From Craspedostauros australis (taxonomy: Eukaryota > Bacillariophyta > Bacillariophyceae > Mastogloiales > Achnanthaceae), in the NCBI GenBank assembly GCA_026770025.1, contig JAMXDE010000051.1, positions 248,001-312,000 of the forward strand: a stretch of 64,000 bases of DNA, in the 5' to 3' direction. Each line of letters begins with the position of its first letter. The stretch's first letter is position 1. Made by a program: the position numbers and the translations under genes. Under the pieces are notes generated by a model. It was not told the origin of the DNA, ran no database searches, and worked only from the letters and a program-made list of their open reading frames with translations. Shown here in pieces: positions 12,178-56,483 of this stretch.

Positions 12178-14724
12178 TTACATCTCTGCTGTGTTGGTAT
12201 CCTGCTCTGCTTTGCTGTGATGCTCGTCCTTGCCAACGAACATGGCCACTTCGAATGTGTTCATGGTGGGTGCTGCTTCGGCTTTGCTGTTGTTGTTGCG
12301 AGGCTCAATGATGTGGGCTTTGCTCTTGCTGGGTTGCTTCTTTCTCTTCTCGTCTTTCTTCTGTTGCTCAGCCTCCTCATTGGCTCTGGTTGTCGCAACG
12401 ATTTGCTTCTCCAGCAACGGAATGAGGCTGCTGGTTGTTGGCAGATTCGTTTTCAGACACTGCAGTCCACTGACAGCCATCACCTTGAGCGCATCATTGT
12501 ACATACCTTTGATGTCGGGCTTGGCGTATTTGAAGCCAGCTGATTTGCCTTTGTTGCCTGTTGCAGTTGGTTTCTTGGTGGTCGCGTGGGTTGCCTCATC
12601 CTCCTCCAACACGAAGTCCGTGTGAGACACGGTAACGCCGATCTCGTTGCCCTCCTTGTCGAATTCAGTGGATGTTTGTTTCCGCACATTCATGTGCAGT
12701 CCCTTGCGCTCCGTCACAAATTCGTCACCTCCTTCCGCAGCACAAATTGCGTAGGCGATCTGATGGTGGCGAACATACGCGCTAGCCACCTTGTCCAGCC
12801 CAAATTGCTCCCAACAGGTTTCACAAGCACCCCACAACGCCTCGGTGGTAAGCAATCGGCTTCCGTGGTGCTCACCTTGATATGATGACACATGTTTTGA
12901 CATCGCTGGGAATATCGCATCGTCTTTCACATTCGTGATGGGAGAATTTGGTGGTTGCAGTCGTAAGTGCCATCCACGACTGTCGAACTCCTCCTTGATG
13001 AATCTAAGTAGCTCTGTGTCTCTGTGTGGCCCTGCGCCATCCATCTGGTACCGAATCACCACGTTCTTGCCCGTTTCGGCCTTGATTTTGCTGGCGAGCG
13101 AATCCAGTGCAGGGATTTCTTTTTCGCGGAAGAATTTCTTGAGGCTGTACTTCGGCTTGGGCTTAACACGATGACCATCTGTTTCCTTGCTGCCCGTGAT
13201 TTCCAGTGGTTGGAAGTACAGTTCACCCTTCTTGCGAGAGATTTTCTCGGGATCAGGAAGGTGCTTGTACTTGGTCGGCGAGACCCAAGTTCGCTTGTAC
13301 GTGGTCTTCTGCGCTCGGACCATGCGCCCAACACGTTCGAAGTTCACCTTATACGCCTTTCCTCCTTTCGCAAAACAGTTATTTGTTGGGGCAAATGCTG
13401 TTGATGCAATTGCCATGGTCTTGTCAATGTGACACTTGTGATGCACAGTCTGCTTCACAGGCTTAACTCCCATCTGGGGCACATGTTTCAGATGCTTGCA
13501 AGCGACAATGGAGTAGAACCACTTTTCGTCCATGTGGACAACAACAACTTGTGTATTCTCGAACTGCTCGGCTGCTTCCCAGAACACACAGAAGTCCTTG
13601 GCCCAGATGTCGCGCTTTGCTGTTGTGGTGCCATTGATCAGAGGGAGTATTGTTGTAGAACGGTACTCACTGCCTTCCAATCCCATGACGAATTTGCGGA
13701 TACACTTCGGACCAACAACTTGCGGGTTTCCGCTGCCTGCCAGTTTCCATGCAATTCTGTCCCACGAGATTGCGCCATTGCACCGTCGCAACACATCCTG
13801 GAGCTCAAATTGCAGGAAGGGACCACGCTCCAACCACAAATCAGCCAGTGCTTTTGCGGATGCCAGCTCTTCCGGCGAAGCAGAGGCATAGGCAGAAGCG
13901 ATTTCGTCATTCTTCAACTGTTGCTCTGGATGTCGAAGACGTAGTTGTTTCTCGAAGGCTGCGCGTGGCGTGAAGTACTGTCGTTGCTTGATGGGGCAGG
14001 TGAAGATGCTGCTGCCTGCGTCACTTCGCTTCTTGCATTCGAGCGTCTCCGTTTGGAATTTCACAATGTTGCGCCCTACTGTGGTGCGGTCGATACCCCA
14101 TGCATGGGCAATCAATTTCGTGTTGGCTGGAATCCCACCCAGATTGAAATAGAGAACAGTGTAGTTCCGATTGTCTTCTTTGTCAAGGCGCTTGCAAGGA
14201 TCACCAGGCTTAGCAATACTACGCCCTCCATCCTTTCGCAACCATCCTTTTGTTTTCGCGCCTTTCTTCATCTGCTTCGTGAGCTGGGCGATTGCTGTTG
14301 CTTTCTGACACCGCGAGACCTCGAGAAAAGCGGCGATTTTGGCTTCTTGCGATTCTGTGGTAGTTGGGGATGGTGTGGGGGGCTTAGCCTTGTTGTTGAC
14401 ACGCGTGGCAGCGACGGAGTGATGCTGGGGAGAAAGGAGGGAAGGTTTAGCAAGGCCTCCAGCAGTGCGAGTCCGTGCGAAGGTAGCGAGGCTGTGTGGT
14501 GTGCACAGATCCTCGCGAACAACATACATTCGGCTCTGCCCCATCACTGGGGTCACCATGACCATTGCCACCTCTCCTGGTGCAAGAGGCCCATCACATT
14601 TGACTGTAGCGCTGTCCGTGGTCTGCTTCATTGCAAAATCAACATGACATACGCCCAGGTCATGGACCCTGCCGCTTGAGCTCTGGTGGGATGCCACCTT
14701 CACACAGTCACCAGCGCGCAGCAT
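12178..14724 (-). CDS. Tc1/mariner-superfamily-like DDE transposase
   Basis: An 848-residue ORF with ATG at 14724 and TAA at 12178. Order of parts: an N-terminal beta-rich region (1-75), a Ser/Thr/Pro linker, a helix-turn-helix-like stretch near 206-235 (AHAWGIDRTTVGRNIVKF), and an RNase H-like catalytic region. Candidate catalytic residues are D399 in HMDEKWFY, D562 in YQMDGAGPH, and D601 or D602 in NVKDDAIF after the motif PPNSPITN. Tc1/mariner and IS630 enzymes share the same landmarks: an aspartate beside an aromatic patch, DNAPxH, and a PPYSPDLNPIE-like third acidic motif. About 130 residues sit between the first and second motifs beyond the usual length. The C-terminus is lysine-rich (KKPTATGNKGK). 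The ORF is intact, so the element may be recent, but no terminal repeats were recognised. Confidence 0.7.
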   Translation of the reverse strand: MLRAGDCVKVASHQSSSGRVHDLGVCHVDFAMKQTTDSATVKCDGPLAPGEVAMVMVTPVMGQSRMYVVREDLCTPHSLATFARTRTAGGLAKPSLLSPQHHSVAATRVNNKAKPPTPSPTTTESQEAKIAAFLEVSRCQKATAIAQLTKQMKKGAKTKGWLRKDGGRSIAKPGDPCKRLDKEDNRNYTVLYFNLGGIPANTKLIAHAWGIDRTTVGRNIVKFQTETLECKKRSDAGSSIFTCPIKQRQYFTPRAAFEKQLRLRHPEQQLKNDEIASAYASASPEELASAKALADLWLERGPFLQFELQDVLRRCNGAISWDRIAWKLAGSGNPQVVGPKCIRKFVMGLEGSEYRSTTILPLINGTTTAKRDIWAKDFCVFWEAAEQFENTQVVVVHMDEKWFYSIVACKHLKHVPQMGVKPVKQTVHHKCHIDKTMAIASTAFAPTNNCFAKGGKAYKVNFERVGRMVRAQKTTYKRTWVSPTKYKHLPDPEKISRKKGELYFQPLEITGSKETDGHRVKPKPKYSLKKFFREKEIPALDSLASKIKAETGKNVVIRYQMDGAGPHRDTELLRFIKEEFDSRGWHLRLQPPNSPITNVKDDAIFPAMSKHVSSYQGEHHGSRLLTTEALWGACETCWEQFGLDKVASAYVRHHQIAYAICAAEGGDEFVTERKGLHMNVRKQTSTEFDKEGNEIGVTVSHTDFVLEEDEATHATTKKPTATGNKGKSAGFKYAKPDIKGMYNDALKVMAVSGLQCLKTNLPTTSSLIPLLEKQIVATTRANEEAEQQKKDEKRKKQPSKSKAHIIEPRNNNSKAEAAPTMNTFEVAMFVGKDEHHSKAEQDTNTAEM

Positions 14725-14991
14725 GCTTGCAAGGTGAAGAGTTCAGTGGTTGCGGGATGATACAACTACGTCCAATGTTGGTGAAGGTTGATAGAACTGT
14801 GTTATTGTGTGTGCTTGTTTGAAGTGATGGTTTACAAAGTTAAGTTTGTTGAGATTATGAGCTCATCAATAAGAGCTCATCATCTTCCTGTTTTCTACTT
14901 CTTGGCTCCACTAATGGTGCTATTCACCATTGTCCATCGTGTTGTAACCATGCCAAACTGCTGGTTACTCCTGCTAATTAGTGTATCTGCG

Positions 14992-38729: not shown

Positions 38730-39944
38730 GCGTGGCCGTAATCCACAACCCCCCACGGTGCGTGGCATGCCGCTGCACTGTGTTGCATAGCGATACAAGT
38801 ATTACATAATATTATACATGGCATGCAACGGGATGACGACAGCAGGCAAGTATTATACATCACATTACATTCTATTATATAGAATAGTATAAGAAGAGAG
38901 GTCGTATCCCACACTCCACTGTCATACTGTGACCGTCCCGTAGCTGTGATTTGCGTCTGTGGCACGCATGTGACGAACTGTAGCAAGCCGTGCCTAGCAT
39001 CAGATACGCGTCTCATGGCATACCAACCAGCACCAAAGCATTCGGCAACATCAGATAACGACCGCTCGATTCGTATCTTTCCGATCTCGTCGCGATGTGG
39101 GTGCACATCTGACAAGCGAGAATGCGGTGTGCACAAGTTTTGGCGCCAACCCGATTCTGTTCTTCTCATGACAGGCAAGGTTGTGGTGATGTGTCAGGTC
39201 GGCTGATTCGAAGGTGGTATCTTTGCGAGAATGACCCTGTTGTGCCTCGATGGGACATGGTGCGTGGGTTCGGGTATCTTTGGTGGACCGACATGTGACA
39301 TGACTGCGACGATGACAAGGGAGGAAAAGGTCTCAAACCAAGACCGGAATGTGTTCTGTTTCGTCCTTTGTGGTACACAATGGCTGGTTTGCGTTGGTGG
39401 CGACTGTCGATGAGACACATCGGTATTGTGTTTAGTATGGTGACTCGTGACACAGAAGCAAGATCAATGGAGTTGGAGAGAGGTGACAAAAGAAGCCCAT
39501 CGCAGGGGGTATTGATGGCCTGGACGAGCGCTCTGTGGTAACAGGTGGCTGCGAGATGCGGGAGACGTGCGATGATGGCAGAGAGCAGTCGTACGCACCA
39601 GTAGTAGTACCAGCCATGAGTACGAGTACAAACCACACTTCGCTGGTATGTCTGATGTGTGGGCATGCAAACATGCGAACATGAGAGGAAGGAGCCTCTT
39701 CTCTGTGTCTCAGAACTTGGCAACAACCACTCACCAATGATGTTGATTGCGCACAAATCTTGGAAATCAGAACAGCCGCACCAAACTATCCATCCAACTC
39801 GCATCGATTGCACCTAGTGTGGGTAGGTTGTCCGAATACGAATACGGATACGAATAGGAAGAGGTAACGAAGTGGAGACAGACAGTCCAGACAAGAGAGC
39901 GAGGAAGACGAGAGAGAGAGAGAGAGAGCTAGTGATTGACGAAG
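38730..39944. other. Intergenic with AT palindromes
   Basis: No supported gene. About 140 bases after the lipoxygenase stop is ATTCTAT-TAT-ATAGAAT (38869-38885), a perfect 7-bp stem, next to TATTACATAATATTATAC (38799-38816). It may belong to the 3' end. An (AG)n run at 39911-39927 and GAATACG repeats near 39835-39855 immediately precede the next gene and probably belong to its promoter or leader. Confidence 0.45.
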
Positions 39945-42900
39945 ATGAGCACCCCAGTCACCCCGAAGAGCAGCAAGCAGAGCATCGGCAGAGGCTCGTT
40001 CAAGTCACCGAGGACGCCGAAGACACCGAAGACACCAAAGACACCACGCAACGCAGGTGGCTTCCGGGCTCCCAAGACGCCCAAGACTCCGAAGACCCCA
40101 AAGACGCCAGGGGGTTCCCATTTCAAGGTCCCCGATCACTGGGAAAAGCAGTCGGCCTTGGTCTTCCACAAGCGCGATGACAACGTGAACAATCCAGACA
40201 TCTCGGGCACCAAGGACTGCAAGCGCAAAGGCGTGTGGACCGGCGAGTACAACGTCAAGTCCCCGTCGGAGCTCTGGGTATTCCCGTACGGTCAGGAACC
40301 CATCGAGATCCACCACTCCAAGTACGAGGCCTTCGGCGTATGGGGCTACAAGCCTGGCGTCACGGAACAGGACTGCACGACTCCCAAGCACTTCTGGTTC
40401 TACCCGCCCAAGGCCAGGGTGCCGTCCTTCTTCCAGGCCCTGGGAATATGGACCTTCCCCTACGTCAAGCCGGAGACGGCGCACATCGCACCGGACTCGG
40501 CGGGCTTCGTGGACGTCGGTCTCGAGTCGGTTAAGAGGAAGAAGCTCGACGTGGGCGGCCAATGGAAGCTGCTCTACCAGAAGGACGGCCTTCCGGTCGT
40601 CACGAAGAAGAAGCTAAACCTCAAGATCCGGACGTGGAAGAATGAGATCATCCCGCTCGACGACTGCCGCACGACCGACAGCATCGACGCCATCAAGAAG
40701 CGCGTTCAGGATTTGCGTCCGGATCTGCCCAAGACCACCCAGAACATGTTCCACGACGGCGAGTTCCTTGAGAGCGCCGCCACCGTGCATGACTACGGCA
40801 TCCCCAACAACGGCATCATCGACCTGGAGGGTATGCAGGTTTACGTGCAGCTGCCTGACAATGGCAAGCGCCTGCTGCTGGCCGTCGACGGGCCTGCGAC
40901 CACCATCCAGCGCGTCAAGGAGATGGTCGAGAAGCAGGAGAAGATCCCACCATCGCAGCAGAAGCTCTCCTTCGGCGGTCAGTCTCTCGAGCAGTCACCC
41001 AAAACCAGGACGCTCAAGGATTACAAGATCAAGCATCTGTCGACGTTGGATCTGGACCTCGACGACCCAAAAATGACGCTCTACGCCCAGGAGTATGGCA
41101 CCGAGCACCAGCTGCCAATCGCTGGCGTCAAGCCCGCGCAGACGGTCGATGAGACCAAGGCGCAGATCGAGCAGCAGCACGGCATCCCCAAGCGCGACCA
41201 GCGTCTCGTGTACAAGGGCAAACCTCTCAAGGACAAGGACAAGACGCTCAAAGACTACAAAATCCCCAACGGCGCGGTGCTCGATCTGCTGCCGATGAAG
41301 GTCACCGTCGTCACGCCCGATGGCAAGAAGAAGATCGACCTGGTCGGCGTCAAGCCAAACTCCACCATCCAGCAAATCAAGCAGATGGTCAATGACAAGG
41401 TCGCCTCCATCCCAGTCGATGAGCAGCGTCTCGAGTACCAGGGCAAGCCCCTCGACAAGGACAGGAAGACGTTGGACGACTACGACATTCCCAACGGTGC
41501 CACCCTCGACTTGTCTCCGATGCAGCTCTTCGTCAAGAACGAACAAACGGGCAAGACCTTCCCCGTGCACGATCCGTCGCTCTCCCCCCGCACGACGGTG
41601 CAGGAGCTGAAGAACATCATCCAGGATCAGGAGAACATCCCGCCGAAGGAACAAAAGCTGATCGCGCCGAACGGAAAGGAGATGAAGGACGACAAGAAAC
41701 CGCTGTCAAAGTACGGGGTTGCCAACGGCGACACCCTCAACTTGTCCAACGCAGGCATGGAAATCACCGTCGTCGACTGGATGAGGAACAGATACGAACT
41801 CAAAGATCTGCAACCGACAACGACCATCGACGAAGTTAAAGAGATGGTGGAAACCATGAAGCCCACGTCGAAGGGCACCAAGCCTCACAAGCCGGTCCCC
41901 AAGCAGCACCAGCGATTGTTGTACCAAGGCAAGGAGCTGTCCGATAACAGCAAGTCGCTTGAGGCATACAAAATTCCAAACAAGGCGCAGCTGAATTTGG
42001 AGGGCATGGAAGTCGTGGTCCGTGATGCCGACAGCAACACGAAGACGCCCATCTCCAACCTCCACCCAAGCGATACCGTGGACGACATCAAGTCGCAGGT
42101 CGAGAAGAAGCTGGGCACGCCGAAGGACCAGCAGCGCCTCATCCACAGGGGCAAGGAGCTCAAGGACAATTCATCGACGTTGCAAGACAACCGGATCAAG
42201 CACGGTGATAAGTTGGATCTGGAGGGAATGAAGATCCACGTGCGGACGCCAACAGGAAAGAAGCTGACATTGAATGTCAAGCCAACCGATACTGTCGATG
42301 ACGTCAAGGGGCAAATCGAAGGCCAGACCAAGACGCCGAAGAAAGAGCAGCGCCTGCTGTTCAAGAAGAAGGAGCTGGACGATGGCCGGCCGACGTTGGA
42401 TGAATGCAACATCAAGCACGGAGACACGTTGAACTTGGAGGGCACGCAGATCCATGTCAAGACTCCAAGCGGCGAGACCTTGACGCTTGACGTCAGACCG
42501 AGCGATACGATCGACAGTGTGAAGGAGCAAATCAAGGATCAAACCAAGACCCCGAAGAAGGAGCAGAGGCTGCTATTCAAGGGCAAGGAATTGAGCAACG
42601 GTCGACCAACCTTGAACGACAGCAACATCAAGCACGGGGATACGCTGGACTTGGAGGGCATGCAGATCCACGTCAAGACTCCAAGCGGTAAGAACTTGAC
42701 GTTGGATGTTAAGCCAACTGATACGATCGATAGCGTGAAGGATCAGGTGGAGGGCAGAACCAAGACTCCGAAGGATGAGCAGCGTCTCATCTACAAAAAG
42801 AAGGAACTCAACGACGACGCAGCAACGCTGGAGGACAACAAGATTCCCCATGGTGCCACGCTCAATTTGGAGGGCATGCAGATCCACGTCACTCCGGCCA

Positions 42901-44036
42901 GCGGCAAGGGCAAGCCCATGACGCTGGACGTCAAGCCCTCCAACACTGTCGACGATGTCAAGAACAAGCTCGAGAAAGAGCACGGCATCCCGAAGGACGA
43001 CCAGCGTCTCAACTTCAAGGGCAAGTCCTTGGACGATGATAGTCCCACAACAAAGACGTTGGATGACCACGGCATCGAGCATGGTTCGACGTTGGACCTG
43101 CAGGGAATGCAGATCGTCGTGAAGGACTGGAAGAGCAACAAGCTGACGCTGGATGTCTCCCCGACCGACACCATCGCTGACATCAAGCAACAGGTGTCAA
43201 AGAAGAAGAAAATCCCGACCGACGTCCAGTTCCTCTCGTACGATCGCAAGAGCCTCAGCGACGACGACAAGACGTTGTCCGACTACAAGATCAAGCACAT
43301 GTCGGTGCTTGATTTGGAACGCATGAAGATCTACGTCAAGACGTGGAACGGGAAGACATTCCCGCTGGATGTGGAACCGAAGAACGCGATCTCCGAGATC
43401 AAGGGCAAGATCGAGGCCAAGGAGAAGATCTCGCCAGACAATCAGTACCTCATCCATGGAGGCAAGCTGCTGGAGGACGAGCCGACCTTGAAGGATTACA
43501 ACATCCGGCACAAGGCGACGGTGAACCTGGAGCGAATGAAGGTCTACGTCAGAACCTGGAACGGCAAGACGTTCACCCTCGAGGTGAATCCGGACGACAC
43601 GATATCCGACATCAAGGGCATGGTGGCCACGAAGGAGAGCATTCACCCCAAGGAGCAGCTGCTGCGGTTCAACGACGAGGTGCTGAAGGACGAACCGACG
43701 TTGCGGGACTACGGTATCAAGTACAAATCCACTATCAACCTCGATCAGATGCCGAAGGAGGAGCCGGCGAAATCGCCAAAGGCCAGCAAGGCGCCAGTCG
43801 AAGCCGTCGAGGCCGAGGAGGAAGACTTTGAGGAAGTGCCGACCTTCCGCGTCCGCATGGACGATTGGCAGGATCCATTCGCCTTCAGCCCGAAGACCAA
43901 GGCCAAGAAGGATGGAGTGCGCGCGAGGAAGCATTACAGCGGTTTGTACGACTTCTACGGAACCGCAACGAACACGCAGACCGCTCCATTCAAGCCGGTC
44001 CTGCAGGACGATGATTCTGGCGGCGATGCGAAGTAG
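39945..44036 (+). CDS. Poly-ubiquitin-like protein: 14 tandem non-cleavable ubiquitin-like domains
   Basis: 1363 residues; the open frame begins at TTG (39936) and the first ATG is 39945. An N-terminal tail carries two TPK-TPK-TPK runs. Residues about 45-220 form an aromatic-rich domain (WGYKPGVTEQ, HFWFYPPK, GIWTFPYVKP) that I do not recognise. Residues about 224-1272 are 14 head-to-tail ubiquitin-like domains of about 70-83 residues. Several are close to ubiquitin: MQIHVKTPSGK, DTIDSVK, EQRLLFKGKEL, PTL.D.NIKHG.TL.LEG. Every domain ends in a short LEG, LQG, LER or similar form instead of LRLRGG, so the usual deubiquitinase cut and conjugation ends are missing. The tail is acidic (VEAEEEDFEE) and then basic. 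There is no signal peptide; a cytosolic or nuclear scaffold is likely, but this is inferred. Confidence 0.85.
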   Translation: MSTPVTPKSSKQSIGRGSFKSPRTPKTPKTPKTPRNAGGFRAPKTPKTPKTPKTPGGSHFKVPDHWEKQSALVFHKRDDNVNNPDISGTKDCKRKGVWTGEYNVKSPSELWVFPYGQEPIEIHHSKYEAFGVWGYKPGVTEQDCTTPKHFWFYPPKARVPSFFQALGIWTFPYVKPETAHIAPDSAGFVDVGLESVKRKKLDVGGQWKLLYQKDGLPVVTKKKLNLKIRTWKNEIIPLDDCRTTDSIDAIKKRVQDLRPDLPKTTQNMFHDGEFLESAATVHDYGIPNNGIIDLEGMQVYVQLPDNGKRLLLAVDGPATTIQRVKEMVEKQEKIPPSQQKLSFGGQSLEQSPKTRTLKDYKIKHLSTLDLDLDDPKMTLYAQEYGTEHQLPIAGVKPAQTVDETKAQIEQQHGIPKRDQRLVYKGKPLKDKDKTLKDYKIPNGAVLDLLPMKVTVVTPDGKKKIDLVGVKPNSTIQQIKQMVNDKVASIPVDEQRLEYQGKPLDKDRKTLDDYDIPNGATLDLSPMQLFVKNEQTGKTFPVHDPSLSPRTTVQELKNIIQDQENIPPKEQKLIAPNGKEMKDDKKPLSKYGVANGDTLNLSNAGMEITVVDWMRNRYELKDLQPTTTIDEVKEMVETMKPTSKGTKPHKPVPKQHQRLLYQGKELSDNSKSLEAYKIPNKAQLNLEGMEVVVRDADSNTKTPISNLHPSDTVDDIKSQVEKKLGTPKDQQRLIHRGKELKDNSSTLQDNRIKHGDKLDLEGMKIHVRTPTGKKLTLNVKPTDTVDDVKGQIEGQTKTPKKEQRLLFKKKELDDGRPTLDECNIKHGDTLNLEGTQIHVKTPSGETLTLDVRPSDTIDSVKEQIKDQTKTPKKEQRLLFKGKELSNGRPTLNDSNIKHGDTLDLEGMQIHVKTPSGKNLTLDVKPTDTIDSVKDQVEGRTKTPKDEQRLIYKKKELNDDAATLEDNKIPHGATLNLEGMQIHVTPASGKGKPMTLDVKPSNTVDDVKNKLEKEHGIPKDDQRLNFKGKSLDDDSPTTKTLDDHGIEHGSTLDLQGMQIVVKDWKSNKLTLDVSPTDTIADIKQQVSKKKKIPTDVQFLSYDRKSLSDDDKTLSDYKIKHMSVLDLERMKIYVKTWNGKTFPLDVEPKNAISEIKGKIEAKEKISPDNQYLIHGGKLLEDEPTLKDYNIRHKATVNLERMKVYVRTWNGKTFTLEVNPDDTISDIKGMVATKESIHPKEQLLRFNDEVLKDEPTLRDYGIKYKSTINLDQMPKEEPAKSPKASKAPVEAVEAEEEDFEEVPTFRVRMDDWQDPFAFSPKTKAKKDGVRARKHYSGLYDFYGTATNTQTAPFKPVLQDDDSGGDAK
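40615..43761 (+). repeat. Fourteen ubiquitin-like coding modules
   Basis: Modules begin near residues 224 (divergent), then at the Met/Thr starts MQVYV, MTLYA, MKVTV, MQLFV, MEITV, MEVVV, MKIHV, TQIHV, MQIHV, MQIHV, MQIVV, MKIYV and MKVYV. Modules 8-10 are most alike in DNA (GATCCA(C/T)GTCAAGACTCCAAGC shared by 9 and 10), so the array expanded recently in the middle; outer modules are more diverged and carry insertions (module 6 has a KPTSKGTKPHKP insert). Confidence 0.8.
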
Positions 44037-44435: not shown

Positions 44436-46022
44436 TCACAGCAGCATGGCGCTGTCAACCTTGATTTGATCCGGCAGCTTCAGGCTATTTCTCCCAAAGA
44501 TCCGGCGCAGCAACCTCCCCGTCGGACTCGTGGTGAGGGCATCCTCCGTCAGCCTCTGGTGATGCTCCTCCACATCCGGCACCGACTTGCGGATGCGCCG
44601 CTCAATCTCGTGAAAGTTGGGACGCAGGTCGGGATCTTCCTGCCAGCAGTCCTCCAGGAGTGTGCGGATGCAGAAGGGAAGATCGGGATGGCACCTGGGA
44701 CGCACACGCAGCTTGGCGACGGCCTCGACCAATGTGGACTGGGTCTTGTGCTTGCCGTACGGCTTCTCACCGTGGCAGATCTCCCACAGCACGAGAGCGA
44801 AGGTGTAGACGTCGGACGCGTACGACACGCCTTCCGTGCCCGTCAAGACCTCTGGCGCCATGTACCGCATCGTGCCGCATACGTTGGGGGCGGTCTGATC
44901 AATGTCCTGCTGCGACGCCGCGTTGTCCTCATCGTCTTCCACGCCGCTCGATCGGTTGGGGATGACGATGTTACGCTTCTCTCGCACGCGGCGCACCATG
45001 CCAAAATCAAAGAGCTTGACGGTGTTCGTGTGCTTCTCGTAGCCGATGTTGGAAGGCTTGAGATCGCCAAAGATGAACTGCTTGGAGTGCAGGTAGTCCA
45101 TGGCCCGGGCGATGCCGAGCGCATCCTGCAGGTAGATCTCCAAGTTGAGCGGATTCCTGGGATTGTAGCTGCGATGGACGGCGCGGCTTCCCGGCGATGC
45201 CCTGTGCTTGAGGGCCGCCAACCGTGATGAAAGATCCAGCTTCTTCTTGTGAAGCTTCGGCGAGACGGGCAGGTCCTCATGATTCTGCTGCTTGAGCTTG
45301 GCCTCCAGAGTTTGCTTCTGCAGAATCTCCATGACGAGGAACAGCGTGCCGTGTCCGTAATACTTGACGATATTGGGATGCCTGAGCTTGGAGAGGATGG
45401 CGCCCTCCATGGCAAGATCGACGACCGCGACGGTGGCGTGAGTGGGGCACTTGGCTGTTTTCTGGCTGTTGACGCACTTGACTGCGTACTCCTGATCGCG
45501 TTGCTGTTGTTGTTGCTGTTGTTGTTGCTGTTGTTGTTGCTGGGTGGAAGAGCTGCAGGACTTGGTGCGATCGTGGGCCGAGACTGCGCTGATGGTGCTG
45601 GCACAGATGCTGCCTGGCGAGGAGAGGCTCGCGCAGGTGGTGGAGCTGGCTGTGGTCACCGTATCGCCATCGCAGGGGCAGGCGTTCATCTCGTGGGTCA
45701 GGAAACCGCTGCTGCTGCTGCTACTGCTGGTGTGGTTGCTGCTGGCGTCTAAGCCATCACCAAAGACGTCCGGATTGGAGATCCTGGCTCTGTAAACATG
45801 CCCGTAAGCACCGCTTCCTAGCAGCTCGAGGATGTCGAGATCATTGAGGTCGATGCGCAGCTTTGGCGACAGCCTGCGCATGGAAGGCTGGCGGCTGCCC
45901 ACATCCTCCGTCAGACTGACGAAGGATCCGTAGTAGCGCTTGTGGAAGGAACCGACCTCCTCGCGTGCTTTCTCCTGAGCTGATGCACAGAATCGGTTGT
46001 TGCTGGGGTCCTCGAGCTTCAT
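44436..46022 (-). CDS. TKL-like protein kinase with FGD in place of HRD (copy 1)
   Basis: 528 residues; the frame opens at TTG (46067) and the first ATG is 46022. Residues 1-60 are shared with the downstream copy (NRFCASAQ, RYYGSF, RIDLNDLD). The glycine loop LGSGAYGHVYRA spans 68-79. A Ser-rich insert of more than 80 residues follows, ending in about 15 glutamines, before the ATP lysine (YAVKCVN). The catalytic loop reads FIFGDLKPSN: the aspartate, lysine and asparagine are kept, but His-Arg of HRD is Phe-Gly. DFG (LFDFGMVRR), the GTMRYMAPE loop and DVYTFALVLWEICHGEKPYG are normal, so phosphotransfer to Ser/Thr/Tyr is plausible. With no RD arginine, control by activation-loop phosphorylation should differ. 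It is probably a soluble signalling enzyme. It lies tandem with the second copy, 1.7 kb apart, same strand. Confidence 0.85.
   Translation of the reverse strand: MKLEDPSNNRFCASAQEKAREEVGSFHKRYYGSFVSLTEDVGSRQPSMRRLSPKLRIDLNDLDILELLGSGAYGHVYRARISNPDVFGDGLDASSNHTSSSSSSSGFLTHEMNACPCDGDTVTTASSTTCASLSSPGSICASTISAVSAHDRTKSCSSSTQQQQQQQQQQQQQQRDQEYAVKCVNSQKTAKCPTHATVAVVDLAMEGAILSKLRHPNIVKYYGHGTLFLVMEILQKQTLEAKLKQQNHEDLPVSPKLHKKKLDLSSRLAALKHRASPGSRAVHRSYNPRNPLNLEIYLQDALGIARAMDYLHSKQFIFGDLKPSNIGYEKHTNTVKLFDFGMVRRVREKRNIVIPNRSSGVEDDEDNAASQQDIDQTAPNVCGTMRYMAPEVLTGTEGVSYASDVYTFALVLWEICHGEKPYGKHKTQSTLVEAVAKLRVRPRCHPDLPFCIRTLLEDCWQEDPDLRPNFHEIERRIRKSVPDVEEHHQRLTEDALTTSPTGRLLRRIFGRNSLKLPDQIKVDSAMLL
45501..45542 (-). 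repeat. Polyglutamine-encoding CAA/CAG tract in kinase copy 1
   Basis: Forty-two bases of alternating TTG and CTG on the plus strand encode about 14-15 glutamines in the insert between the glycine loop and the ATP lysine. The second kinase copy lacks it. Confidence 0.9.
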
Positions 46023-47705: not shown

Positions 47706-49151
47706 TCACGACAGCATGACGCTGTCCACCTTGATCTGATCCGACGAGTCGCGGCCAAAGATGCGGCGCAGCAGCTTCCCCGGCGACGGCTTCGGACTCG
47801 ATTTTTCCCAGTCATGACATTCCTCCACCGACTTGCGAATGCGGCGTTCGATCTCGACGAAGTTGGGACGCAGATCCGGATCGTGCTGCCAGCAATCCTG
47901 AAGCAGCGTGCGGATGCAGAACGGCAGATCGGAGTGGCACTTGGGGCGCACCTGGTCCTTCTCGACGGCCTGGCGCAACATCGCCGGCGTCCGGTACTGC
48001 CCGAAAGGCTTCTCGCCGTGGCAGATCTCCCACAGAACGAGCGCGAAAGTGTAGACATCGGAGGCGTACGACACGCCCTGGCTTCCTGTCATCACCTCGG
48101 GCGCCATGTACCGCATCGTGCCGCAGATGTTGAGAGATTCGGTCTTCTCGAGGTGCTGCGGCGTGGATTGCGTGTTGGTCTGCTTCGCTGGAGCGACCTT
48201 ATCGGGCACAACGACGTTGCGCTTTTGTTGGACCCTGCGCGCCATGCCGAAATCAAAGAGCTTGACGGCACCCGTGTGCTGGTCGTATCCGATATTGGAG
48301 GGCTTGAGATCGCCAAAGACGAATTGCTTGGAATGCAGATAGTCCATGGCCTGGGCGATGCCGAGCGCATCCTGTTTGTAGAGTTGGAGATTGAGGGGCT
48401 TCCTGTGATTCTGATTTCTACCAAGGAGGCCGCCGCCGCCGATGCCGATCGTCTTTGATTTGTTCTTGGTTTTGCTCTTGTTGTTGGCCTTTGGTTTGAT
48501 GGAGGATATCAACGACGCACCGGGACGGTCGTCTCTGTTTGCATTCCCGCTGTGTGAGTATGGGAGCTGCGATTGGTCCTGCTGCTTGATCCTATCCTCC
48601 AGGGTTTGCTTTTGCAGGATTTCCATGATGAGGAACAGCGTGCCATGCCCGTAGTACTTGACGATGTTGGGGTGCCTGAGCTTGGAGAGGATGGCGCCTT
48701 CCATGGCGAGATCGACAGTGGCGACGGTTGCATGGTCCGGTGATTTTGCCGTCTGCTGCGAGTTGATGCACTTGACGGCGTACTCTTTGTGTGAGTCTTT
48801 GCTGTTATTAGCGTTTGTATTGTCGCCGTTGCCATCAACGATTCGAGCACTGAGGACGTCCGGGTTCGATATCCTGGCCCTGTAGACACTGCCGTACGCA
48901 CCGCTGCCCAAACGCTCGATGGCATCAAGGTCGTTGAGATCGATGCGCATCTTGGAGGAGAGACGGCAGACCGACGGCTGACGGCTGCCTAGATCTCTGG
49001 TCGTTGTGACGAAGGAACCGTAGTAGCGCCTATTGAATGTGCCCACCTCCTTGCGCGCCTGCGTCTGAGCCGATGCACAGAAGCGGTTGTATGCTGTGGG
49101 ATCCTCCAGCTTGGCCCCTCTCGATCTGGTTTGCGCATATTGGTTGGTCAT
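47706..49151 (-). CDS. TKL-like protein kinase with FGD in place of HRD (copy 2)
   Basis: 481 residues, ATG at 49151. It is paralogous with copy 1 along its whole length: N-terminus NRFCASAQTQ and RYYGSF, glycine loop LGSGAYGSVYRA (near 82-93), ATP lysine YAVKCIN, KYYGHGTLFLIMEILQKQTLE, catalytic loop FVFGDLKPSN, DFG in LFDFGMARR, GTMRYMAPEVMTG and C-terminal helices with LRRIFGRD. The insert before the ATP lysine is short and has no polyglutamine. A different low-complexity insert (KPKANNKSKTKNKSKT) lies between the N- and C-lobes. The same His-Arg loss at HRD shows the change predates the duplication. Both copies end with QIKVDSxML, a shared C-terminal tail outside the kinase fold that may bind a common partner. 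Confidence 0.85.
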   Translation of the reverse strand: MTNQYAQTRSRGAKLEDPTAYNRFCASAQTQARKEVGTFNRRYYGSFVTTTRDLGSRQPSVCRLSSKMRIDLNDLDAIERLGSGAYGSVYRARISNPDVLSARIVDGNGDNTNANNSKDSHKEYAVKCINSQQTAKSPDHATVATVDLAMEGAILSKLRHPNIVKYYGHGTLFLIMEILQKQTLEDRIKQQDQSQLPYSHSGNANRDDRPGASLISSIKPKANNKSKTKNKSKTIGIGGGGLLGRNQNHRKPLNLQLYKQDALGIAQAMDYLHSKQFVFGDLKPSNIGYDQHTGAVKLFDFGMARRVQQKRNVVVPDKVAPAKQTNTQSTPQHLEKTESLNICGTMRYMAPEVMTGSQGVSYASDVYTFALVLWEICHGEKPFGQYRTPAMLRQAVEKDQVRPKCHSDLPFCIRTLLQDCWQHDPDLRPNFVEIERRIRKSVEECHDWEKSSPKPSPGKLLRRIFGRDSSDQIKVDSVMLS

Positions 49152-50843
49152 GGTCTGTTTGTTTTGCTTTGTTCTGCTTGTACTGTTTGTTCTGTTTGGT
49201 TTCTGATGAAAGGATGCTGATGGGAGGGGAAGACGGTGATGGGAGGACGCAGTTTATGACCCTCTCATTTCATGCACGTTGTGATGGGCAACGAGAATGA
49301 AAGAGAGAGAGAGATGGGTGGCAATGGGTGGACGGATGATTTGATGTGATTTGATGTGATGTGATGTGAACAAGGGGATCATCCACGGAACTTTGTGATC
49401 ATCTGCACCACCCCGTGCTGTTCATGATTGTGATGTTGCTCCTTCTGGAAGTTTGTTCTCATGTTGCTCTTGTTGATGGTGTCCAATGTTTCCGCGAAGA
49501 TCGTGCCGTTCTGCGTGCGTGAACCGTACTGGTATTAGTGCACACGACGCGAGCATGGCATGGCGAAGACACACTGGTAAAAATGTGGGAGGGAATGTCG
49601 TGTGGGCACTTGTTGTCTCACATTTCTTGTCGTATAGGACATGTTTGTGACAGCAGCTGATAAGTATGGACATGGCTTAAGTCTTGTGCGAGAGAGCTTT
49701 TGGTTTGATTCGTGCGACAGTTTGGTCTTGGCACCATGAACTTCGCCGCTTTTTGTATTTCGCCAAACGGGTCGTGGACATCCGGGACAGAGGTACTGCT
49801 ACAACGTTATGTGGGAGTGCTTGGATTCTCTTTGGTTCACGGATCATTATCTGGGAACCGTGACGTGACGCAAGTCGTTCGTGCCTGATCGGGACAGAAA
49901 AGATGCCTGAAAAGACCGAACGAACAGAGATGTGGACAAAGGGAGACACATCAAGCGACAGACCATGACATGTTTGTCTTGTGTCCCTTGTGTCTTTGTG
50001 TTGCGCCGCGGTCGTGTTGGTGTTCGGTGATGGGGAGAAGGAGGGTGGCGGCATTTGCGAAGACGCCTCACACACCCACCCACCCACACTCTCTGCATCG
50101 CAGCTCACCTCTCATTCGCACTCGCACTTGCATTCGAACAAAGTTGGGCAGCTCGTGACTCGTGGCGTGTAGGAGTATCACCTGGCGAAGAAAGGAGAGC
50201 ATCATCTGCATCCTCCATCCAGACCAGTACTCGCATCGGAGTGTCCACGAAGGCATCCAAGGGGATCCAACGAACCAGCGGAAGAAGCAAGTGCACTGGA
50301 GCGAGGACAGAAGGTGGAGCTGATAGTGGAGCTGGAGCTGATAGTGAAGTCAAGGGAGAGACGCCTCGCAACACAACAAGGAGAAAACGAACGACGAACA
50401 ACAGACGAACTGAGCAAGGAGTATCGAAGCAGGAGAAAGAGAAAGCGCTTTCCATCCTTCTACTATCTGCGCTCCTTCCGCAGATCGTACTCGTGCGAGT
50501 TGGATCGGCCTTGTGACGCCAACGAACCACAGAACCACAGAACCAACCGAAGCATAGATCGTTCTATTGGGACTAGTCGTACGACTACGCTTACCACAAA
50601 GCATCAAAGCGTCAAAGCACCAGCAGATTCCTCTCAGATTGAGAGAGAGAGAGAGAGACTGTGAGACATCACCATACGAGCTATTATACGAGGAGAGTAA
50701 CTGTACGTGCGCACCCATACCTTTGACAGGCAAACGTAGTCAGACGCAACCATCTCCATACGTATTATACCATACAAGCGTGCCACACAAGCGTGCCACA
50801 CAAACTAATACGCACCCGGCCTTCATCAAAACAACGTCACAAG
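49152..50843. other. Intergenic upstream of the giant repeat gene; no gene supported
   Basis: It holds the promoter of kinase copy 2 and, at the right, the promoter and leader of the giant gene. Frames at 50055-50516 and 50567-51043 overlap that leader and have no domains. Simple sequence: GATTTGATGTGATGTGATGTG (49348-49368), (GA)n at 50643-50658 and CACCCACCCACCCAC near 50072. A duplicated 11-mer GCGTGCCACAC occurs at 50779 and 50791, just upstream of the start codon. Confidence 0.4.
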
Positions 50844-53800
50844 ATGGCAACGGGCGGAGACGAGGATGCTGCCGTGGCAAAGTACAAGGCCATGCGCCGA
50901 TCATCGGACGCGTACGACAACATGAACAGCGCATCCATGGGCTTCCTGGGTGCTTCCAACACCAGGCAGCAGAAGGAGAAGCAAAACAAGAAGGCTGCCA
51001 ACAAGTGGAGGCCCAGCAAGGGCAGGGAGGAACGTCCCAGTGATTGGCTGGGATCTCCTTCCGCGAAGAAGAGGCCTAGCTACAGGATCAAGGCGGTCAT
51101 CGCTGCTCCAACTCTCGATGATAGCAACAGTGACAGCGACAGTAACAACGACAATGGCAACGGCAACGACAATGGCGATGACAATGGCGATGACAATGGC
51201 AATGATGCTGACAGTAATAGCAGTGATGGCAACCCAACCAAAGATAGGAAGGCCAACAGCAACAGCGGCAGCAATATCGGCAGCAACAATAACAGGAACA
51301 ACGGCAGCAACGGCAGCTCAACTTCGCGATATGGCTCCGCTCGTCAATCAAAACCCAAGTCCACTGCCAAGCCCAATTCGTTGTCGGCATCGCCCAGGCC
51401 CACACGATGGCTGGGAGGTAGTGGCGGTGGAGAGACCATGACGCCAGGTCGCAAGTCATATCGCATCAAGAACGCCTCGAAGAACAGGCCCACAATCCCC
51501 AACTTGGATGACACGTCTGCGCCAGCAACGACAACAGCAACAACCAACCTGCCGTCTGCATCGTCATCATCCAACAACAGCAGAAGAAGGGCATCATGGC
51601 AACCGCAACCGCAACAACCACCAGCAACAACCACCACATTGGATGCCCTGCTCTCTCCCGCCATGATGCCACACTCACAGCGAAAGCTAACACCCTCCAA
51701 CCATTCCAGGGCGAGTTTATCGACAGCTGGCAGCGTCTCCAACAGGGCCAGACGCACACCGCCATTGCCACCACCGCCACCGGTTCATGCGCCCGCCCGA
51801 ACATCCATCACCACACCTGTGGCACCGCCCAAACGAGTCATCGGTCAGAGGAGGCAGAGCGAGAGCAACATCAGCAACTCCAGCAATCACAGCGCGCTCG
51901 GTTCCTCATGGTCGTCCTCGATCATGGCATCGCCCATTCACAACCATGCGAAGCGGGCATCCATCGCAACCTCCTCACCCACCACCTCGCAATCTCCAAG
52001 GCGGACCCACAGTCTGCAAATTGAAGCCAAGCGCAAGGAGGCCATCCGCTCCAAGCTTCTGCAGCAGCCAGACGCCAAGGTCACCCTCTCGTCGACCGTC
52101 AAGAAAAAGGAAAAGATGAACAGAACCAAATTCGTCGCTGCGTACGCTGCCTTCGAAGACAAGCCGAATCCCTTGTCCTCCAGCAGCCACCATCGCCATC
52201 ATTCCGTGCCAATCCAGAGCTCGCTGCCATCGGCATTCGCCCACCTTGCTCCCATCACCAACCTCAAATCCTCCATGCCGACAGGCAGCGCGCATTCGGA
52301 CAGGACGCCGCCTCCACCTCAAATCCCATCGCCGCGCATGCCACCACGTCAACGACCGTCGCCCTCCGACCACGACGCGCCCGTGACGCCTGTTCCCAGA
52401 CCAAAGAACACGGTGGGCAGGAACGCGAAACAGCAGTCCTACCTCAAGGGCGCCCCATCCCCGCACCGCATCATCTCCCCACGACCGGGTGCGCCGAGAT
52501 CCTTCTACATACCGGCCAACTTCCAGGAGCTCCGCAAGAGGCTGCGGCAGCGTAAATCAAACGAAGCAGAGCTGTCGCAACTCACAGACATCATCGACAA
52601 CCTCCGCAAGGTCCCCGACCTCGCGGCCATGATGTCCCTGTCGCATCATTCCCTGTCCTCCATCACCGAACCATCCAAATCGCGCGAGCAGGCATCCGAG
52701 ATCCTAGAGATCATCCGCAAGCTGCGGCACGTCGAGCTCAACCCACCCAAGAAACGTCGCTCTTCTTCTGTCAAGCGCGTCACCAGGACCATCAGCGACT
52801 CCACCTTGGACACTGACGACGATGACGATGATGACATCTCCATGACGGTCCTCAAATCGCTCGAGTCTGGTACCGTCGACAGATCGTCTCGCAGTTCCAA
52901 CAGAAACAACGACAACAACAACAACACCTCCGACGACAGCGCCGACAACGATGGTGGCGAGGCCCTGCTTTCCGACGGAACATCCGGAAATCTCCAAACG
53001 CACGTCAAGGAACTGGCTGGTATCGTCGGCAATCTGCGCAAGGTCGGGGCGCTCGAATCCATGACGGACACAGAGCTGGGGCAGATGCAGAATATCGTCG
53101 ATCAGCTCGATTCCGTTCAACAGCGGCTGGACGACCGTCTCTACGAGGCCAAGCAGCTCTCCAAGGTCTCCACCAAGCTACACAGCATCAAAACCTCCAA
53201 GTCACCCGCCATCGATGAGATCATCGCCGAGGCGCTGCGCAAGCTCAAGCGCATTCGCCCCAAGCTCTGCGATCAGGATGAGGACGACACCATGAAGTGC
53301 ATCAAGATGCTGCGGAAGCTCCAGGCGGCCATGAACAAGCGCGAAGAGGAAGAATTGGCAATGCTCATTGGACAGCTTCCAGCCTACACGGCAGGTGGAG
53401 GTGACGACGATGATGACGACGATGACAATGACAATGAGGTTGATGAATTCCATGGCGACAGCCATGACGACAATGGGCCTTCCTCAAATGATGCAGCCGG
53501 CACGGGAGGTTCCAAGCTGCGCAGATCGGATGTTCGTGAATTGGCACATGTCCTGGCCGAACTCAAGATGATGGGACAGGCACCACCCAACACTTTCTAT
53601 CACGGTCGCGTGGACAGCAACCTCAGCAACGACAACAGCGCTGCTGGTGGAAACGAGGGTGGCCGTGTGGGCGGAAGCACGTTGAACACGAAGCATTCTG
53701 ACTTTTTGACCAACGCCATCCGCCGTCTCAAGCGCATTCAGATGACCAAGCGGCAGGCGAAGGAGACTGCCAACGTCGTGCGCAAGATGGGCATCGCGGA

Positions 53801-56483
53801 CGATGACGATGACAACAGCAGCACGGCAACCGATGAGGACATACACCAGCTGCGCGATGTCATCCTCAACCCGCGCGATGCCAAGGAGGTCATGCACATC
53901 CTGCGCGGGTTGCGTCGCAGCATCCAAATGAACCAGAAGGAGGCCAATGATCTCGCCGACATCATCGACACGCTGGTCGGCAAGGCGACCCAGAACTACC
54001 AGGATGACATCGCCGACGCCATCGGTCGGTTGAAAAAGGCAAAGCTGTTGCCACGCGAGGCCAGTGAGGTTGCGAAGATCTTTGTGGACCTGCGCAACCT
54101 GAGGAAGCCAGGCAGCAGCAAGCGCGTCACTTTCAAGGACACTCCAGAATACCGCTACTTGACGGAGTACGTCGAAGATGATGACAAGATGGAAGAAATC
54201 TCGGACACATTGGAGACCCTTGCCAACGTGGATGGACTTCCCGACAATGTCCTCGGTCAGTACGGCGACATGGTGGCAGACTTGGGGCACGACCCGGATG
54301 AAGACGATGATGGCGCAGAAAGCGCTGCATCTGGGCGACATGGCAGAGGGCAACGTCCCCAAACCATCGCCGATGCCATCGCGTCGCTTCGCAAAGCCAG
54401 CATCAACGCCAAGCAGACCAAGGAGGTTGCCAAGATCATGGTCAACCTACGCAAAACGAAGAAGCCGCCACAGGGCAACCGGCGCTTCCAAGACACTCCG
54501 GAATATCACCATCTGCTGGACGTCGTCAAGGATGATGACACTGCCGATGATATCGCGGAGATTCTGGAGGCCTTGGATGACGACGACACGGCGGATATGG
54601 AGGAGTGCGCGGCAGAACTGTTGAAGGTCCAAACGGTGCCGGAGGCCATCGATCGCATCCAGTCCAACGATCTGACACCAAAGCAGATTAAGGGAGTCGC
54701 TGGGCTCGTTTCCAGCTTGCGCGCCACTGATGACGACGCTGGCGGCGATGACGACGATGACGACGATGACGATGGCAACAACATCGTCAATGGCAATGGC
54801 AACGGCAATATCAATGGTAGAACGCCATCAGGCAAGCGCGTGCGATTCCGCGACACTCCCGACTACCACTACATGTACGAAGCGCTGGCAGACGGCGACG
54901 ACGAGGTTGCGGATGATCTCAATCAAGTGATGGAATCGTTGCAAGATGAGGACCGTTTCGACGATGACGATCTGCAGCAGTGCGCCCGCGGATTGCTGGA
55001 TGGCATTCCTGCCATCATTACCATCCCGAGCGCAGTCGGACGCATGTTGCAGAACGACATGAACCCAAGGCAGAAACGCGACGTGGCTGGCATCATCGCC
55101 AACCTACCCCCCATCAAGAAAGGCAAGAAAAAGAAAAAGAAACGCGTGCGATTCAGCGACACCATCGAATGCCGCTACATCCAGGAGGAGCTATTTGCAG
55201 ACGATCCGGCCGCCGCTGATGACTTGGGTGACATCATCGGCGAGATTCAGAGCCGCTTCGGCAGAGACGATCTGCGCGAGTGCGCCAATTCCTTGTTGGG
55301 CATTCCTGAGATCATCACCATCCCTCAGGCGGTGAGCAGCATCCAAAGGGCGGATCTGACTCCAGAAGAAACACGCAAGGTCGCAAACATCATTGTCGGA
55401 CTTCGTGACGACGACGACGAGAATGACGGTGGCAAATCCAGTGGTACGAGCACCGATATGCATGATGACGACAGCAAGTCCAAATCCAAGAAGAAGAAGA
55501 AGTCAAAGTCAAAGAAGCGAGTGCGATTCCGTGACACGCCCGAATACCGATATCTGTACGAAGCCTTCGACGATGGCAACAACAAGACTAGCAATGGGAA
55601 TGGAAAGAAACCATCGCACACGGAAGAACAGCAGGAAGAACGCATTGAAGGTATTGCGGATATTCTGGAGGGCCTCAAGAGCAACGACAAGTTCAAGGGC
55701 GACGACATGAAGGAATGCGCCGACATCCTGACGGGGTTGCTGGGCGCAAAGTCGTTTGAAGATGACAGCGACGAGAGCGACGCGCCGCTGGTGGAGGTTG
55801 AATACGAGAAGGGCAAGCCGAGGATGGTGCTGAATGTGCCAAAAGGAGCGAAGGCAAAGTCCATCGACACCCTGTCGGTCGACGACAGCGTGGAAATATC
55901 CGACGTCGAGGATTACGAAGTCGCCAGCAGCGACGATGACGACGATGACTACGTCGCGGAGTTGGTGGACACCCCGAAGGATCGTACTTTCGATGGTGGT
56001 GACAGCATCGACACGAGCGTGGAGTCGCCGCTTCCGGAGTCACCGAAGAAGAAGTCGCATCGCAAGTACCACTACCGCCGATTCGGCAGCCACGACGACA
56101 CCAACAACGACGGCTCATCATCCAACGATGACGATGGCGAGGATGAGGACTCCGATGAGGAGGAGACAGAGGAGCGCCGCATCGTGTTCGTCCAACGTCA
56201 CCATTGGAAGCACAAGAAGCACAACAAGACGGTGCTGGGAGACCGGCGGTATTGGAAGGCGAACGCGTTCGGCGCGGACGAGGTGATCTACAGCCCCCTG
56301 ACGATGGAGCAGGTGGGACGCCGCAAGAAGGTGAACCAGGCCTTGCTGAGGTCCATGGCGAGCCTGGACGATGACGATGAGGATCAGCGGATTGACGAGA
56401 TGGAAGAGAAGGCGTCGGAGAAGATGGATATATTGGATCGCAGCAACCACAGCTCGTCGAAGGTCCGGTATCGACGCGCATGA
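50844..56483 (+). CDS. Giant acidic repeat protein with RVxF-type motifs
   Basis: 1879 residues from ATG 50844; the open frame starts at a GTG at 50793. Residues 1-560 are disordered, basic and Ser/Asn/Pro-rich. From about 570 a 35-residue helical unit recurs, of the form IADAIxxLRKAxLxPKQxKEVAxIIxxLR (for example near 1060, 1170, 1270, 1390 and 1510). Between these, from 1093 on, a larger unit recurs about every 100-125 residues. It begins KRV[TR]F-x-DTPEYRYL at 1093, 1331, 1433 (DTIECRY here) and 1558, with a diverged RRFQDTPEYHHL at 1212. Long Asp runs separate units. KRVRF fits the [KR]-x(0,1)-[VI]-x-[FW] docking motif of protein phosphatase 1, and tandem copies suggest a PP1-binding scaffold, but this is inference. 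The tail has an RRIVFVQRHHWK stretch. It lacks a signal or membrane segment. No known family recognised. Confidence 0.75.
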   Translation: MATGGDEDAAVAKYKAMRRSSDAYDNMNSASMGFLGASNTRQQKEKQNKKAANKWRPSKGREERPSDWLGSPSAKKRPSYRIKAVIAAPTLDDSNSDSDSNNDNGNGNDNGDDNGDDNGNDADSNSSDGNPTKDRKANSNSGSNIGSNNNRNNGSNGSSTSRYGSARQSKPKSTAKPNSLSASPRPTRWLGGSGGGETMTPGRKSYRIKNASKNRPTIPNLDDTSAPATTTATTNLPSASSSSNNSRRRASWQPQPQQPPATTTTLDALLSPAMMPHSQRKLTPSNHSRASLSTAGSVSNRARRTPPLPPPPPVHAPARTSITTPVAPPKRVIGQRRQSESNISNSSNHSALGSSWSSSIMASPIHNHAKRASIATSSPTTSQSPRRTHSLQIEAKRKEAIRSKLLQQPDAKVTLSSTVKKKEKMNRTKFVAAYAAFEDKPNPLSSSSHHRHHSVPIQSSLPSAFAHLAPITNLKSSMPTGSAHSDRTPPPPQIPSPRMPPRQRPSPSDHDAPVTPVPRPKNTVGRNAKQQSYLKGAPSPHRIISPRPGAPRSFYIPANFQELRKRLRQRKSNEAELSQLTDIIDNLRKVPDLAAMMSLSHHSLSSITEPSKSREQASEILEIIRKLRHVELNPPKKRRSSSVKRVTRTISDSTLDTDDDDDDDISMTVLKSLESGTVDRSSRSSNRNNDNNNNTSDDSADNDGGEALLSDGTSGNLQTHVKELAGIVGNLRKVGALESMTDTELGQMQNIVDQLDSVQQRLDDRLYEAKQLSKVSTKLHSIKTSKSPAIDEIIAEALRKLKRIRPKLCDQDEDDTMKCIKMLRKLQAAMNKREEEELAMLIGQLPAYTAGGGDDDDDDDDNDNEVDEFHGDSHDDNGPSSNDAAGTGGSKLRRSDVRELAHVLAELKMMGQAPPNTFYHGRVDSNLSNDNSAAGGNEGGRVGGSTLNTKHSDFLTNAIRRLKRIQMTKRQAKETANVVRKMGIADDDDDNSSTATDEDIHQLRDVILNPRDAKEVMHILRGLRRSIQMNQKEANDLADIIDTLVGKATQNYQDDIADAIGRLKKAKLLPREASEVAKIFVDLRNLRKPGSSKRVTFKDTPEYRYLTEYVEDDDKMEEISDTLETLANVDGLPDNVLGQYGDMVADLGHDPDEDDDGAESAASGRHGRGQRPQTIADAIASLRKASINAKQTKEVAKIMVNLRKTKKPPQGNRRFQDTPEYHHLLDVVKDDDTADDIAEILEALDDDDTADMEECAAELLKVQTVPEAIDRIQSNDLTPKQIKGVAGLVSSLRATDDDAGGDDDDDDDDDGNNIVNGNGNGNINGRTPSGKRVRFRDTPDYHYMYEALADGDDEVADDLNQVMESLQDEDRFDDDDLQQCARGLLDGIPAIITIPSAVGRMLQNDMNPRQKRDVAGIIANLPPIKKGKKKKKKRVRFSDTIECRYIQEELFADDPAAADDLGDIIGEIQSRFGRDDLRECANSLLGIPEIITIPQAVSSIQRADLTPEETRKVANIIVGLRDDDDENDGGKSSGTSTDMHDDDSKSKSKKKKKSKSKKRVRFRDTPEYRYLYEAFDDGNNKTSNGNGKKPSHTEEQQEERIEGIADILEGLKSNDKFKGDDMKECADILTGLLGAKSFEDDSDESDAPLVEVEYEKGKPRMVLNVPKGAKAKSIDTLSVDDSVEISDVEDYEVASSDDDDDDYVAELVDTPKDRTFDGGDSIDTSVESPLPESPKKKSHRKYHYRRFGSHDDTNNDGSSSNDDDGEDEDSDEEETEERRIVFVQRHHWKHKKHNKTVLGDRRYWKANAFGADEVIYSPLTMEQVGRRKKVNQALLRSMASLDDDDEDQRIDEMEEKASEKMDILDRSNHSSSKVRYRRA
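54118..55720 (+). repeat. Five long tandem coding repeats with KRV[TR]F-DTPEYRY
   Basis: Units begin at about 54120, 54477, 54834, 55140 and 55515 (residues 1093, 1212, 1331, 1433 and 1558). Each has the opening motif, an acidic helical stretch with the form DDxxExxDxLExL, an ECAxxLL stretch, and an IxxAIxxI..LTPxQxxxVA segment. The second copy replaces KRV with NRR. The copies differ at DNA level, so the array is old and maintained. Confidence 0.8.

Follow-up and report, generated by a model that had tools for sequence, protein, structure and literature searches.

A diatom gene for fourteen tandem ubiquitin-like domains without ubiquitin-type cleavage sites and with a largely altered receptor face

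Long ubiquitin arrays are usually read as ubiquitin storage. What, then, might an array do when its joints carry no site at which ubiquitin could be released? The question is raised by a stretch of DNA from the diatom Craspedostauros australis (NCBI GenBank assembly GCA_026770025.1, contig JAMXDE010000051.1, positions 248,001 to 312,000 of the forward strand), which we analyzed over its full 64,000 nucleotides and refer to as the window; coordinates given without a prefix are positions within it. A gene on its plus strand, to which a first-pass annotation had drawn attention, encodes what we call the array protein: a single frame with 14 ubiquitin-like domains (UBLs) that have no ubiquitin-type cleavage site, a changed receptor face, a kept folding core, and short joints.

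The plus strand is free of stop codons from 39936 to 44036, and the first ATG, at 39945, opens an intron-free reading frame (39945..44036, stop included) whose translation is a protein of 1363 amino acids (aa), 153.8 kDa, and isoelectric point 8.9. When the bases of this open reading frame (ORF) were shuffled 200 times and read in three forward frames, the longest stop-free run was 264 codons, against 1363 in the real sequence; GC content at third codon positions (GC3) is 0.82. Hydropathy peaks at 0.99 (19-residue mean), below the level needed for a membrane segment, and no such segment was seen. The array occupies aa 224-1267 (40614..43745, plus strand), as delimited by Pfam and by a six-frame genome search, so that the span first proposed for it, 40615-43761, is right to within about 16 bases of the measured 40614 to about 43745. 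The same annotation had a TPK-rich tail and an aromatic domain fused to the array; both are present, but both lie N-terminal to it, and a further tail of 96 aa lies C-terminal.

That the array is a continuous series of 14 ubiquitin-like domains, as first proposed, is borne out by Pfam, which finds PF00240 in the product of the one frame as 14 stretches (expect value [E] 9.2e-200), and by a second, six-frame search across the genome, in which all 14 modules exceed the Pfam curated cutoff for that family (E, 2.1e-19 to 3.0e-5). UBL 1 (40614..40832) is the most divergent, at 28% identity to the genome's own ubiquitin, and leads into UBL 2 (40833..41072), which has a 6-residue joint to UBL 3 (41073..41294). 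UBL 4 (41295..41519) and UBL 5 (41520..41756; 4-residue joint to the next module) follow, then UBL 6 (41757..42005), with a 10-residue insert after the helix, and UBL 7 (42006..42227). UBL 8 (42228..42443), UBL 9 (42444..42659; 55% to own ubiquitin), and UBL 10 (42660..42875) are a group of local duplicates, and the array closes with UBL 11 (42876..43106), UBL 12 (43107..43322), UBL 13 (43323..43535; 54% to own ubiquitin), and its pair partner UBL 14 (43536..43745), all on the plus strand. Module length is 70 to 83 aa (72 aa in four modules), and identity ranges from 28 to 55% against the genome's own ubiquitin and from 18 to 71% between modules, with only rough figures for modules 5 and 6 because the start of module 6 was set late in that alignment. 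The description of several modules as near-identical to ubiquitin thus holds for motifs (MQIHVKTPSGK in module 10, EQRLLFKGKEL in module 9, DTIDSVK in modules 9 and 10) and not for whole domains. A profile of the 14 modules searched against the PDB (E ≤1e-10) returned ubiquitin, polyubiquitin, or ubiquitin-based binders throughout the best 60 of 338 matches, and linear polyubiquitin chains were the top PDB matches among the best 60 of 361. The modules are accordingly assigned to the ubiquitin family, with ubiquitin as the nearest PDB relative among the matches listed.

None of the 13 joints contains GG or LRLRGG. The modules end instead in LEG (modules 1 and 6 to 10), LQG (11), LER (12 and 13), LDLDLDDPK (2), LLP (3), LSP (4), LSNAG (5), and LDQ (14), which agrees with the original observation that all lack LRLRGG and end in LEG, LQG, LER, or similar; the only GG pairs of the array, at aa 344 and 1172, are interior to modules 2 and 13. 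Only modules 2 and 5, through their joint residues, occupy any of alignment columns 72 to 76. Deubiquitinases and E1 require LRLRGG at the ubiquitin C terminus, and because it is missing here, no deubiquitinase cleavage or E1 activation is expected at the joints. The annotated view of an array that stays one chain and is not conjugated through its modules therefore fits the absence of the residues that these enzymes require, and the array should be a permanent single chain. The joints are also short: from the equivalent of L69 to the next module there are two residues in all but 2 of the 13 joints (joint 2-3 has 6 and joint 5-6 has 4), compared with 7 residues after L69 in ubiquitin. The shape and recognition of linear ubiquitin chains depend on a flexible linker segment, and this shortening removes it.

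The fold has been held, much of the surface has been remade, and the modules share a new feature at positions 68 to 70. At 14 core positions, picked from general knowledge of the ubiquitin fold, a hydrophobic residue occupies 189 of the 196 cells (14 positions in 14 modules). The face made by L8, I44, H68, and V70 is the binding site for most ubiquitin receptors, and here the ubiquitin residue is kept in 4 of 56 cells, all of them at position 44 (I in 4/14, any hydrophobic residue in 9/14). L8 is kept in no module (W in five, P in five, A in two, Y and E in one each), nor is H68 (D in eight, N in six) or V70 (E in eight, D in two, S in two, Q and L in one each). The combination of D or N at position 68 in 14/14 modules with an acidic residue at position 70 in 10/14 is the new feature common to them. 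Elsewhere, K27 is kept in 14/14, K48 in 11/14, I36 in 8/14, and K63 in 0/14. Leu8-Val70 forms part of a patch that K48-linked chains need in order to bind the proteasome, as stated in a passage of PMC3349725.

The genome's own polyubiquitin (C3:2241768-2242895) has five repeats of 76 aa that differ from one another by 17 to 28 of 228 bases and by 0 or 1 aa. Within the array, Nei-Gojobori estimates for nine pairs, which are rough because synonymous divergence (dS) is near saturation, give modules 8, 9, and 10 a dS of 1.4 to 2.4 and a nonsynonymous divergence (dN) of 0.19 to 0.24, and modules 13 and 14 a dS of 1.04 and a dN of 0.36. Constraint is demonstrated by these values for the closest duplicates (8 to 10), not for every pair. 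Judged from the sequences, divergence within the array shows itself to be older than, and separate from, that of the organism's own polyubiquitin repeats. A tree built from the 14 modules and nine further UBLs encoded in the genome groups modules 8 to 10 (support, 91/88), 13 and 14 (96/89), and 3 and 4 (80/72) and resolves little else: good support falls on 1 of 20 inner branches, and the bootstrap had not converged. On the same tree a single clade of all modules is neither rejected nor shown (approximately unbiased test, p-AU = 0.17).

Flanking the array are ends of a different kind. The basic N-terminal tail (aa 1-57, 39945..40115, plus strand) has a net charge of +14, seven TPK motifs, and 11 S/T-P sites, and is predicted to be disordered and targeted by kinases. 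It is followed by an aromatic W-repeat region (aa 58-223, 40116..40613, plus strand) of the form GVWGYKPG...P..FWFYPP...GIWTFPY, with a KRKK basic patch inside SVKRKKLDV that we take to be of the basic import signal type; we infer that the array protein sits inside the cell. Neither Pfam nor a single-sequence PDB search (E ≤10) gave a match to the W-repeat region, and the genome yielded only one relative, a frame of 1196 aa at C25:674310-677900 (the C25 protein). Seven W-repeat units cut by hand, two overlapping ones from the array protein and five from the C25 protein, share six invariant columns (G, W, P, W, G, W). The acidic C-terminal tail (aa 1268-1363, 43746..44033, plus strand) carries DWQDPFAFSPKTK, an instance of a motif DWxxPFx[FY]xPK that recurs as DWKSPFEYKPKLK near the end of the C25 protein. 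Searched as a DNA pattern, the motif occurs at two places only in 74.8 Mb, those in the two proteins, with none for the backwards control and about 0.02 chance matches estimated at equal base use. The two proteins thus resemble each other weakly at both ends, and they differ in that the C25 protein has no Pfam ubiquitin match and more W-repeat units. As a lead, the two ends might form a reusable set that received the UBL array as an insert. Basic stretches of SPKK-like type and KPxDxWVFxP-like units also occur in the C25 protein. A calreticulin-like kind was considered for the W repeats and rejected: Pfam gave no match to the W region of either protein, single sequences had none in the PDB with E ≤10, and the repeat alignment gave two PDB rows (E, 1.5 and 7.7) that we take as chance.

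The features of a mimic or of a shuttle are largely gone and a permanent bead chain with special ends remains, and for that reason we favor, with moderate confidence, a permanent tandem-domain protein of ubiquitin descent that would serve inside the cell as a rod or docking scaffold. Its 14 beta-grasp beads are strung with almost no linker, and at most joints no more than two residues part the last strand of one bead from the first strand of its successor. The tail used by proteases and E1 has gone and the receptor face is largely replaced around a kept folding core; the diverged beads would probably offer several docking faces, or mere length, and not one signal repeated 14 times. At the two ends, the W-repeat region and the DWxxPFx[FY]xPK tail may anchor the rod to a partner common to the C25 protein, and phosphorylation may control the TPK tail as a tether. 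Rod shape, a scaffold or load role, and anchoring through the ends are the predicted parts of this proposal. Tandems of ubiquitin fold faithfully, and a passage of PMC4862688 counts linker length among the reasons.

Several observations weigh against this reading. Position 44 is hydrophobic in 9/14 modules and position 8 holds W, Y, or A in 8/14, which may leave some modules with a partly greasy receptor face; column 8 is the least certain of the face because nearby loop lengths vary among modules. Modules 3 and 4 have dN close to dS (dS, 0.66; dN, 0.64). The link between the W-repeat region and the C25 protein gives E values of 0.006 and 0.013 forward and 0.001 in reverse, and a direct comparison of the two scores 37.8 bits with a bias of 40.3 bits; since the score is no larger than the bias, the likeness is partly shared composition. 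Used as a protein query, the C-terminal tail matched only itself in the genome, with the best C25 domain at 7.4 bits, under the inclusion line, and the DWxxPFx[FY]xPK pattern was composed after both sequences were known and so indicates rarity, not independent discovery. The rod shape itself is drawn from joint length, and tight joints could still bend.

A mechanical role is the likeliest of the other readings, although we regard it as doubtful. The array could be a load-bearing spring, its titin-like beads unfolding reversibly under tension in a rigid-walled cell. Strands 1 and 5 of ubiquitin form a force clamp when the domain is pulled from its two ends, according to a passage of PMC3349725, and end-to-end pulling of the array would load that clamp. 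Short joints bring neighboring clamps near each other, and the distinct ends could provide anchorage, but those ends carry no known cytoskeleton-binding domain. Similarly doubtful is a structural, titin-like rod, load-bearing or length-setting, in which polyubiquitin architecture would have been reused: strand 5 of each bead would lead at most joints through two residues to strand 1 of the following one, with a new acidic and aromatic face in place of the receptor face and anchoring ends common to a second protein.

The first-pass annotation had instead favored a linear ubiquitin mimic built into the protein, one that would gather ubiquitin-binding proteins on a scaffold with no enzymatic step. 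Head-to-tail order, ubiquitin descent, the kept K27 and K48, the largely hydrophobic position 44, and the linear polyubiquitin chains that lead the listed PDB matches all suit such a mimic. The counts at the receptor face do not: L8, H68, V70, and K63 are each kept in 0/14 modules, the face survives in 4/56 cells, position 70 has turned acidic in 10/14, and the linker has shrunk from 7 to 2 residues in 11/13 joints. With its face changed and its joints short, we reject the mimic as the best reading and consider it unlikely. Searches of the genome for OTULIN and for UBAN (CC2-LZ) gave no match, as did the same searches of control genomes; OTU proteases had six matches in the genome.

We judge a role as proteasome shuttle or regulator, of the kind played by the UBLs in Rad23 and Dsk2, to be improbable. 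The array protein is of the same ubiquitin family as those UBLs and matches the NCBIfam rad23 model at 266.2 bits against a cutoff of 207.3, but this score sums 12 stretches, the best of which spans profile positions 1-69 of 381, the UBL part, and we reject the rad23 label as a sum of UBL scores. Unlike Rad23 and Dsk2, the protein has 14 UBLs, shows neither UBA nor STI1 among the 24 families that Pfam lists for it with E ≤1, and has lost most of the proteasome-binding face. A polyprotein cut by another protease into diverse free UBL peptides finds no direct support beyond the recurrence of LEG before the next module in six cases; the joints differ in sequence (LEG, LQG, LER, LLP, LSP, SNAG, DDPK) and expose little chain, and we hold this reading to be quite improbable. 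Least probable is a functionless, decaying, or mis-assembled polyubiquitin copy, for which strong divergence from ubiquitin and the lack of a dS excess over dN in modules 3 and 4 would speak, against 1363 open codons, a hydrophobic core in 189/196 cells, low dN with high dS in modules 8 to 10, and the GC3 of 0.82.

The array protein has partial counterparts among known systems. Polyubiquitin precursors share head-to-tail ubiquitin-fold modules in one frame and ubiquitin descent, but the repeats of the organism's own polyubiquitin end in LRLRGG and are near-identical, whereas the array has no GG, 18 to 71% identity, and unique flanking ends. A 429-aa frame from C12:1790725 on has a hydrophobic leader-like stretch and then two similar ubiquitin domains, each ending in LRLRGG; this may be a plastid-associated ubiquitin of the PUBL kind. 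Tandem ubiquitin-like domains are also found in USP7 and USP47 (as HUBL domains), OASL, ISG15, and FAT10, with two to five modules in each case; those of USP7 and OASL are not cleaved apart, and ISG15 and FAT10 carry a terminal GG. The 24 Pfam families of the array protein include neither a USP nor an OAS enzyme domain. Ciliate BUBL proteins have an intein-like BIL/Hint domain beside their UBLs, and the Hint family is likewise absent from those 24 families. Bacterial PolyUbl/Bil operon proteins resemble the array protein in holding tandem UBLs in one protein; in the part of PMC11354881 that describes it, BilA has two modules and lies in operons with E1, E2, and JAB genes. The array gene, in contrast, is a eukaryote gene, and 0 of 10 scanned neighboring frames are of E1, E2, or JAB type.

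Scans with short exact peptide patterns, which could miss distant arrays, gave 5, 45, and 33 matches in three scans of viral contigs, none confirmed as a relative, and 82 matches in prokaryotes, where four loci held a relative, each a single UBL and not an array. In the open-license literature, no title or abstract start among the matches listed describes such an array in a diatom. The four prokaryotic single UBLs, 47 to 52% identical to the query, come from Ohessyouella blattaphilus, Microcystis aeruginosa, a Clostridia bacterium, and an Oscillospiraceae bacterium. By eye, the UBL follows a signal-peptide-like start in the first three, which suggests that the bacterial single UBLs with such a start are secreted ubiquitin-like proteins.

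The window contains 63 frames of at least 200 aa, and ten neighbors of the array gene were scanned with Pfam. Upstream lies a lipoxygenase fragment, and downstream, on the other strand, are two protein kinases; the remaining neighbors are two subtilase pieces, CIA30 and NMT1 matches, one PT-repeat protein, and two frames without a match. The neighborhood gives no hint of a ubiquitin operon. The two adjoining kinase genes (44436-46022 and 47706-49151, minus strand) look alike by eye, and the first has a long glutamine run. A 1918-aa frame at 50727-56483 (plus strand) has no confident Pfam match and shows, by eye, RVxFxDTPxYxY-like repeats and acidic stretches, and two long frames at 2903-5893 (plus strand) and 12178-14742 (minus strand) have no Pfam match at 0.001 and look mobile-element-like by eye. 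Elsewhere in the genome, silicon transporters (PF03842) form a large expansion across many contigs, with 88 matches (best E, 4.2e-249); 32 of these are nearly full length, and four of the 32 contain in-frame stops. The family makes a diatom the most likely host, and 1 of 14 control genomes also matched, below the cutoff. Most diatoms have far fewer silicon transporters, and some other silicified algae have them too.

The architecture of polyubiquitin can thus shed its cleavable tail and most of its receptor face and yet retain the fold fourteen times over. If the two proteins do share their ends, the pair would make the anchor partner testable. The clamp between ubiquitin strands 1 and 5 is familiar from laboratory pulling experiments, and a rod or spring in C. 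australis, if true, would be a natural mechanical use of it.

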